Part shown: positions 22,588-41,962 of the stretch, piece by piece
Layout: each line of letters opens with the position of its first letter
Position numbering within the stretch: position 1 is the first letter of the stretch
Assembly (NCBI GenBank): GCA_026197075.1
Contig: JAPHQV010000004.1
Span: 1-64,000, forward strand
Direction: 5' to 3'
Length of the DNA: 64,000 bases
Source: Gammaproteobacteria bacterium
GTDB lineage: Bacteria > Pseudomonadota > Gammaproteobacteria > DSM-19610
Translations under genes and position numbers: made by a program
The notes under the pieces: generated by a model
Databases searched by the model: none
Told to the model about the DNA's origin: nothing
Seen by the model: only the letters and a program-made list of their open reading frames with translations

Positions 22588-22635
22588 TAGGCCCGCCTTC
22601 CCGTAGGCCCGCCTTCCCGTAGACCCGCCTTCCCG
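22588..22635 (+). repeat. Three tandem 16-bp repeats
   Basis: Three head-to-tail copies of TAGGCCCGCCTTCCCG at 22588-22603, 22604-22619 and 22620-22635 (the last has one change, TAGACC). They begin 4 nt after the pyrC' stop and run directly into the palindromic repeat that follows. Confidence 0.9.
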
Positions 22636-22637
22636 AT

Positions 22638-22722
22638 GGTTGTCCCCGGCGGGTGTCGGCCGCAGGGATGCGGCCGTCAAGCCTACAGGGATGTATTCAC
22701 GGCGACCCGCCGGAGGCAACCG
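22638..22722. repeat. Dispersed palindromic repeat, copy 3
   Basis: The core TGTCGGCCGCAGGGATGCGG and the segment CAGGGATGTATTCACGGCG match copy 2 closely. It is flanked by shorter, imperfect inverted arms (GGTTGTCCCCGGCGGGT at 22638-22654; complementary ACCCGCCGGAGGCAACC at 22705-22721, two mismatches). It lies between pyrC' and the PyrK-like gene, which run in the same direction. Confidence 0.85.
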
Positions 22723-22775
22723 GGTAGGCAGCCCCAACCGCGACGCCACACACCTGCCACGCTACAATAGCCGCC

Positions 22776-40420: not shown

Positions 40421-41062
40421 ATGCAGGATTACCAGCAGGCCTTTCTGGAATTCGCCATCGACGCCGGCGTGCTGCGCTTCGGCGAGTTCACCCTGAAATC
40501 CGGGCGCGTCAGCCCCTATTTCTTCAACGCCGGCCTGTTCAACACCGGCCGCCACCTGGCGCGGCTGGGCCGCTTCTACGCCCAGGCCATCGTCGATTCC
40601 GGCCGTGACTTCGACGTGCTGTTCGGCCCCGCCTACAAGGGCATCCCACTGGCCGCCGCCACCGGCATCGCCCTGGCCGACCACCACGAGCGCGACCTGC
40701 CCTGGTGCTTCAACCGCAAGGAGGCCAAAGACCACGGCGAGGGCGGCAACCTGGTGGGCGCGCCGCTAGAGGGTCGGGTATTGATCGTCGACGATGTCAT
40801 CACCGCCGGCACCGCCATTCGCGAGTCCGTGGACATCATCCAGGCCGCCGGCGCGACCCCCGCCGGCGTGGTGATCGCACTGGACCGCCAGGAACGCGGC
40901 CGCGGCGAGCGCTCGGCCATCCAGGAAGTGGAACAGGACCTGGGCCTGCCGGTCACCAGCATCGTCACCCTCGCCGACCTGCAGGCCTGGCTGGAAGGCG
41001 GCGCCGGCACCACCGACACCCTGGAACGCATCCGCGCCTACCGGGCGGAATACGGCGTTTAG
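40421..41062 (+). CDS. pyrE: Orotate phosphoribosyltransferase
   Basis: Converts orotate and PRPP to OMP, the fifth step of pyrimidine synthesis. It has [50 protein letters not shown] and the PRPP motif [17 protein letters not shown]. Length is 213 residues, the norm. It is separate from the pyrR-pyrB-pyrC' block some 19 kb away. It converges with a TSUP permease gene, with a palindromic repeat between the two. Confidence 0.97.
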
Positions 41063-41075
41063 GCACCTGTGGTTC

Positions 41076-41185
41076 ACGTGCCAACCGGTGTCCTGTTGCG
41101 GGACCCGCTGTGAATACATCCCTGTACGCTCGACGGCCGCGTCCATGCGGCCGACGGTCCCGCAACAGGACACCGGCTGGCACGT
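41076..41185. repeat. Dispersed palindromic repeat, copy 4, with 30-nt inverted arms
   Basis: The core at 41106-41155 is nearly identical to copy 1 (positions 4-52) and matches copies 2 and 3 on the other strand. Arms at 41076-41105 and 41156-41185 are inverted copies of each other, with 29 of 30 bases complementary. Their outer sequence (ACGTGCCAACCGGTGTCC) is unrelated to the arms of copies 2 and 3; only the inner GCGGG/CCCGC is shared. It lies between the convergent genes pyrE and the TSUP permease. Confidence 0.9.
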
Positions 41186-41206: not shown

Positions 41207-41962
41207 TTATCCCAGGATCAGCTTCAACCCCACCGCCAGGGTGATGACCTCGTAGACCCGCTTGATCCAGCGGTTGCCCTTGACGATGGCCAGGTGAGCG
41301 CCCAGGTAGCCGCCCAGCAGGGAGCCCAGCAGCAGGGCCGGTAGCCAGCTCCAGCGGATCTCGCTCAGCACCCCCAGCACCAGCGCGCCGGCGCCGTTCC
41401 AGAACAGACCCACCAGGATCAGGGTGTAGGCCACGGCGCGGCGGTAGTCGAGCCCGAACCAGCGCACCAGCCAGAGGGTGACGAACAGCCCGGTGCCCGA
41501 GGTCAGGGAGCCGTTCAGCACCCCGATCCCGAACAGCACCAGGCCGCCCACCCCGTAGCCCCAGCGGTCGCGGTGCAACACCGCCTGCACCTGGCCCAGC
41601 CCCGGCCGCAGCACAGAGTAGACGCCCAGCCCGGCCGTCAGCAGGCCCAGGGCGATTTCCGCCGCCCGGTCCGGCACGTGGATGATGAGATGGGCCCCGA
41701 GCATCACCCCGGGCAGGCCCGTGGCCAGCAGGTACAGGGCGAAGCGACGCTCCAGCGGCTCCTCCCTCAAGTGGCGCAGGGTGGCGCCGATACCCAGTGC
41801 AACACTGGCGACTTTGTGCGTCGCCAGGGCAACGGCAAAGGGCAGGCCCAGGAAGATCAGCGCCGGCAGCTGGATCAGGCCGGCGCCACCCCCGGCAAAG
41901 GCCGAGAACAGGTTCGCCACCAGGGAAATCAGGAACAGCAGCAGTTGTTCGAGCGAATTCAT
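41207..41962 (-). CDS. TSUP (TauE/SafE) family permease
   Basis: Membrane protein of 251 residues with about eight hydrophobic segments. N-terminal motif ANLFSAFAGGGAGLIQLPAL (about 16-35) and the repeat-half motif GVLNGSLTSGTGLFVTLWL (about 148-166) are typical of the TSUP family, which exports sulfite or organosulfonate-derived anions. The substrate is not deducible here; in a sulfur-oxidising cell sulfite export is plausible. It is divergent from the DUF4124 gene. Confidence 0.88.
   Translation of the reverse strand: MNSLEQLLLFLISLVANLFSAFAGGGAGLIQLPALIFLGLPFAVALATHKVASVALGIGATLRHLREEPLERRFALYLLATGLPGVMLGAHLIIHVPDRAAEIALGLLTAGLGVYSVLRPGLGQVQAVLHRDRWGYGVGGLVLFGIGVLNGSLTSGTGLFVTLWLVRWFGLDYRRAVAYTLILVGLFWNGAGALVLGVLSEIRWSWLPALLLGSLLGGYLGAHLAIVKGNRWIKRVYEVITLAVGLKLILG

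Follow-up and report, generated by a model that had tools for sequence, protein, structure and literature searches.

A dispersed MITE/REP-like repeat of Gammaproteobacteria with paired, copy-specific arms

The copy of a short repeat at positions 41076-41185 of a 64-kb stretch of gammaproteobacterial DNA (the window, analysed at its full length of 64,000 nucleotides) raises the question of how a conserved core comes to lie between two arms that pair with each other and seem to belong to that copy alone. The left arm (41076-41105, + strand) and the right arm (41156-41185, + strand) flank a 50-nt core and are complementary at 29 of 30 positions, as the first-pass annotation of this DNA had said. 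The sole unpaired position is A41084, opposite C41177, and its counterpart in the relative G001 (locus L090) is a G, which restores the pair. A scan with the same geometry finds at most 19 paired positions in shuffled windows (n = 5), whereas the real window reaches at least 24 at exactly two sites, 41076 (29, the maximum) and 2224, both of which are copies of the repeat. The RNA fold z-score of the 41076-41185 copy is -8.8 on the + strand and -10.7 on the - strand.

Anatomy of the head and the stem

The conserved head, or core (GTGAATACATCCCTGTACGCTCGACGGC-CGCGTCCATGCGGCC, 41110-41152, + strand), is about 94% identical among copies inside one subfamily and is made of two hairpins. P2 (TACA-TCCC-TGTA, 41115-41126, + strand), which is seen in RNA folds and pair counts, reads UACA-GGGA-UGUA on the - strand, and P3 (CGGCCGCG-TCCA-TGCGGCCG, 41134-41153, + strand) is likewise seen in the folds. 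The inner left stem and junction (GGGACCCGCT, 41100-41109, + strand) follow the family-B consensus. Across copies, P2 takes the form TACA-TCCN-TGTA, while P3 combines a variable stem with a TCCN loop, present in most of 157 hairpins. On the - strand the head reads CANGGAUG (P2) and GCANGGAYGC (P3), a pair of ANGGA hairpin loops in both of which the variable base is the one between A and GGA.

In some copies, one of the head loops, P3 or P2, contains extra hairpin modules. At L027, L036, L037 and L044 in the window's genome (G000) and at L105 and L114 in G001, the head is extended by a multi-hairpin module of about 95 nt in the P3 loop; those copies with both flanks present still show copy-specific arms. 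The P2 loop of L242, L250 and L268 holds a different module of about 50 nt (GTGCCCCAGGGCACCTTCTCGACCGC..), and a related module occurs in other lineages (L145, L158). Two copies in Methylotuvimicrobium buryatense 5G share a P3-tip module of about 150 nt where the orthologues in Methylomicrobium sp. wino1 have a plain hairpin (L174 versus L301), which suggests that the tip accepts insertions or swaps modules.

The 41076-41185 copy sits between convergent genes. Upstream, on the + strand at 40421-41062, is a phosphoribosyltransferase gene, presumably pyrE. Its product belongs to Pfam PF00156, and the downstream neighbour, on the - strand at 41207-41962, encodes a TauE/SafE-family protein (Pfam PF01925). 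The count of four cores in the window was also borne out, with matches on the + strand at 7 and 41110 and on the - strand at 22700 and 2299. At the contig edge, the left arm is absent and the head remains (7-49, + strand). Core match and arm pairing together define the two others, a complete copy with long paired arms (2224-2333, - strand) and a subfamily A copy whose stem has partly decayed (22624-22735, - strand). Assembly breaks inside the repeat, including the one at the first bases of the window, are found at the ends of eight G000 contigs (C1, C9, C27, C41, C45, C52, C54, C56).

A search of the whole genome with alignment of the flanks, which the first-pass annotation had suggested, gave 56 core matches with up to three mismatches, against none for a reversed-pattern control. 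Self-complementary flanks of 22-44 bp were present in 37/37 complete copies tested, where that annotation had allowed that most copies might lack them, and in 35 of the 37 the outer arm was best matched by its own partner, not by the arms of other copies. The copies fall into two subfamilies, A and B. They belong to a non-coding, many-copy element of about 110-260 bp, and nearly all are intergenic as judged with a simple gene caller.

The outer stem, P1, has a median length of 30 bp, with the middle half at 27-33 bp (152 copies). Arm pairing stays at 0.80-0.99 through position 35 and is 0.25-0.32, the chance level, further out. Identity among copies is 85-92% at positions 6-10 of the stem and 0.43-0.52 at positions 11-25, against 0.27-0.34 expected from composition, so that a family consensus is kept there. 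At positions 26-35 it is 0.30-0.38 against 0.28-0.29 expected, which is essentially copy-specific. In subfamily B, the stem consensus includes GGCCGG at a fixed distance. The earlier statement that the outer arms do not resemble those of other copies thus holds for positions 26-35 but not for positions 11-25. Fixed length and inner consensus indicate that the stem is a part of the element, drifting faster outward. The suggestion that the element makes its surroundings palindromic was mostly wrong, since pairing ends at one fixed length (median 30 bp); L095 is an exception.

Distribution and arrival of the element

Of 39 relatives, 13 carry close forms of the repeat, every one of them in the same family. 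A class-wide sample found it in 20 of 369 genomes, with up to 143 copies (G266, at one mismatch); carriers include Thioalkalivibrio, Sedimenticola, Methylotuvimicrobium, Marinobacter, Saccharospirillum and Microbulbifer. The repeat is a MITE/REP-like element with a patchy distribution across Gammaproteobacteria. A literature search, with subscription journals mostly outside its reach, found no account of it.

Bacterial MITEs such as Correia/NEMIS, ERIC and RUP are likewise short, non-coding, high-copy and intergenic, with long self-pairing. In Methylotuvimicrobium, a 23-bp terminal inverted repeat (TIR), TAGGAA..AAATAACTT, stands at both ends of 16 head-bearing copies, and the TIR-bounded copies, most commonly 186 bp long, are flanked by 3-bp TWA duplications (TTA or TAA), as in MITEs; in the G000/G001 lineage there is an apparent TA duplication. 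Several features are unlike MITEs: a second inner stem and a conserved double-hairpin head, arms that vary copy by copy and stay paired, and terminal repeats that differ between lineages around the same head. No autonomous element with the same ends was found, in that no TIR pair lies about 1-1.5 kb apart among the wino1 sites listed at one mismatch. Membership in the MITEs is established for the Methylotuvimicrobium copies, and the window copy at 41110 would presumably belong with them.

The repeat also resembles the REP/REPIN sequences associated with RAYT (Y1) transposases, including CGTC-tagged REPs (PMC3733652, PMC3116915), which are numerous intergenic palindromes of Gammaproteobacteria with paired hairpins. 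In REPs, however, the stems are constant within a family; in this repeat it is the loops that are conserved, and the stem is variable. The GTAG/CGTC end tag of REP/REPIN was not found: the repeat ends in TIRs or long stems, and CGTC occurs only inside the head. Mobilisation by a RAYT was rejected, as two Y1 genes in G000 have no copy of the head in the surrounding loci that were examined.

Comparison of the isolates M. buryatense 5G and Methylomicrobium sp. wino1 provides clean empty sites without a palindrome (L169/L298; L195/L297), the second pair having two adjacent insertions. The Methylotuvimicrobium copies share their arms, with 0.61 identity at positions 16-25, and within the genus of the window a G001 subfamily of five has its whole sequence in common, arms included, with ends TTACTAAGG..GGTTTAGTAA. 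The site of the G000 copy L045, with a likely TA target duplication, is cleanly empty in G001 (L255). No empty site was found for the 41110 copy, whose orthologous site in the relative (L090) is filled, and turnover in the majority of G000/G001 spacers has been too extensive to leave clean empty sites. Arms shared by young copies, together with clean empty sites that lack a palindrome, indicate that the palindrome arrives with the element.

These observations bear on the main idea of the first-pass annotation, that the head inserts alone and the native flank is then copied to its opposite side by inverted duplication. One locus looks like such a case. At L095 (G001 contig C18, 1246-1490), 97-bp arms that are identical at 96 of 97 positions extend past the element, the palindrome running from the head into native flank, and 190 nt of the opposite flank, present in G000, are missing; this resembles an inverted duplication made by fold-back at the element, a single exceptional case in a fragmented draft. 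Also in keeping with the idea are positions 26-35, where pairing is about 0.8 yet consensus is absent, and two half sites (L251, L256) that carry the left arm alone, readable as deletions or as native sequence copied later. A single fixed stem length, an inner consensus with GGCCGG at constant distance in subfamily B, arms common to young copies and the absence of either arm at clean empty sites all argue against it as a general rule, and as such it is very unlikely. The half sites themselves look like remnants, given the fixed stem length and the inner consensus, including GGCCGG in subfamily B. The pair L107/L251 was once considered as an empty site with inverted duplication of native flank, and this was dropped because the retained stretch holds the subfamily-B consensus GGCCGG; outgroups, moreover, hold an unrelated short spacer.

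It is less probable still, to the point of being hardly credible, that old terminators or other palindromes supplied the stem when their tips took the insertion. The loop of a GTAGGAGCGG-type repeat does hold one copy (L021/L093), and many outer stems have the terminator-like form AAGCC..GGCTT. The relative's repeat at L021/L093, however, is short-looped and has no second stem, and stem length is uniform. The clean empty sites contradict the idea directly, since they do not already contain a palindrome; the first-pass annotation had named empty sites with a pre-existing palindrome as damaging to its own account.

Orthologous spacers of G000 and G001 (L084-L104, L255-L269) hold different palindromic repeats in each species (GTAGGAGCGGCC.., GTCATTGCGAGCG.., TTTGCGCCTTTGCGGTGAAT..), which points to very fast repeat turnover. 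In two distant relatives, stems of unlike sequence have been placed independently in the same short spacer (L278 in G008, L107 in G001).

Concerted change of the arms and apparent inversion of the head

In 31 gap-free aligned copies with 30 stem pairs (930 stem cells), two-sided changes are found at 30/30 stem pairs. The entire structure has 399 two-sided cells, where shuffling leaves 121 +/- 9 and sliding at most 92, and one-sided wobble cells (G-U on the + strand) account for 5 of the 930 in the stem. At L005+L017/L095 the arms agree inside each species, yet several substitutions and a one-base indel separate the species. Homogenisation is not immediate, as uncompensated changes do occur (eight columns at L056/L268 and one each at L026/L090 and L106/L242).

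Among ten filled copies that are orthologous between G000 and G001, the head is inverted relative to the flanks in six (L106/L242, L052/L114, L012/L099, L013/L108, L005+L017/L095 and L030/L096) and not in four, G001 being a fragmented draft. Stem homology is clear at L106/L242 and L052/L114; it is less certain at L012/L099 and L030/L096, where separate insertions are possible, and at L013/L108 one arm is masked by N. G001 is 80% complete in 290 contigs, and G000 is in 59 contigs often broken within the repeat, so misassembly could account for some of these inversions and for the L095 fold-back. Finished genomes gave no confirmed case of head inversion: the lone Methylotuvimicrobium candidate, L195/L297, was rejected, since two elements had inserted there independently, about 200 bp from each other.

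Template switching between the arms of a hairpin yields both homogenisation and spacer inversion (PMC8604942), and it both creates and repairs hairpins (PMC8794818). L095, with an inverted copy of native flank next to its head, would be a more extreme event. The preferred explanation, to which we give a probability of about 0.64, is that a dispersed MITE/REP-like element carries its own stem of about 30 bp, the arms of which are homogenised, and the head flipped, by template switching. The non-coding element would consist of the head with its two hairpins (P2, P3) and the stem that bears it, with TIRs and a short target duplication added in young copies. It would be moved by a transposase acting in trans, and the stem would be delivered along with it at insertion. 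Later, replication across the hairpin may now and then switch template between the arms, and a mutation of one arm would thereby be copied into the other; the same switching would sometimes flip the head as a spacer inversion. The stem of each copy would drift in this way to a private sequence with its palindrome kept, while the head would stay constant, presumably because something recognises it. This account is weakest in its reliance on the draft assembly of G001 and in that no transposase with matching ends was found.

The first-pass annotation had offered selection or template switching as ways in which pairing could be kept, and this part of it is supported by pervasive double changes, few wobbles and the six tip inversions in ten. 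We infer that template switching, rather than selection alone, is the main cause of the pairing. As far as the aligned copies can tell, the double changes, the scarcity of wobble intermediates and the inversion of 6/10 tips fit template switching best, although selection for pairing could yield equal double changes. Quasipalindromes that undergo template switching (PMC8604942, PMC8794818, PMC7202029) are similar in their homogenisation, their multi-base compensatory changes and, if the inversions reported above are real, their spacer inversion. They have been described for individual loci or for other organisms, whereas here a whole repeat family would be affected in parallel.

Transcription, the GGA strand and what the repeat may record

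Selection on a transcribed RNA structure, be it a bidirectional terminator, a 3'-end protector or a protein-binding RNA, could also keep the arms paired, through compensatory mutations. It would account for the very strong fold, for covariation at all stem pairs, and for intergenic copies that lie more often in convergent than in divergent spacers (23 versus 10, p = 0.035). A.C mismatches exceed G.T (26 versus 10, p = 0.011), an excess that corresponds to wobble pairs on the GGA strand; it is not predicted by the symmetry of double-stranded DNA and hints at some strand-specific tolerance. Against this, few one-sided G-U intermediates are seen on the + strand, as counted above, and inversion of orthologous heads would be unexpected if one strand mattered. 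Nor is there a strand bias with respect to co-directional transcription, since the GGA strand is sense at 36 and antisense at 38 of 74 sites between co-directional genes; a strand-specific RNA function was rejected on this ground. No Rfam family matched the repeat at the gathering threshold. At a loose threshold, most matches were to miRNA precursors, whose models pick up any long hairpin; a small number of weak sRNA matches scored well under their cut-offs. Maintenance by RNA structure is considered unlikely.

A more specific possibility concerns the head. On the GGA strand, P2 of family B reads GUACAGGGAUGU, another ANGGA hairpin lies about 23 nt from it, and we take this P2 sequence to equal the in-vitro-selected CsrA consensus RUACARGGAUGU. 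One csrA gene (PF02599) is present in G000. CsrA motifs usually occur as paired GGA hairpins (PMC4333381), and both these and TwoAYGGAY (RF01731) resemble the two ANGGA-loop hairpins of the - strand with their variable base between A and GGA. The head may be a mobile double binding site of the CsrA/RsmA type, and its copies, scattered by transposition, would then serve together as a decoy or a regulatory network. In that event, wobble pairs would be tolerated on the GGA strand. Unlike those hairpins, however, the repeat has no RF01731 match, and its GGA strand is not preferentially the transcribed one. The lack of strand bias and a distribution like that of mobile DNA disfavour this proposal, which seems quite doubtful.

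If the template-switching explanation is right, the repeat would hold dozens of natural records, made in parallel in bacteria, of copying between arms and of flipped tips, and the rate of concerted hairpin change would become measurable independently of any one gene. In that case, massive compensatory covariation in a repeat, which is generally regarded as proving that an RNA is functional, can also stem from a process at the level of DNA.
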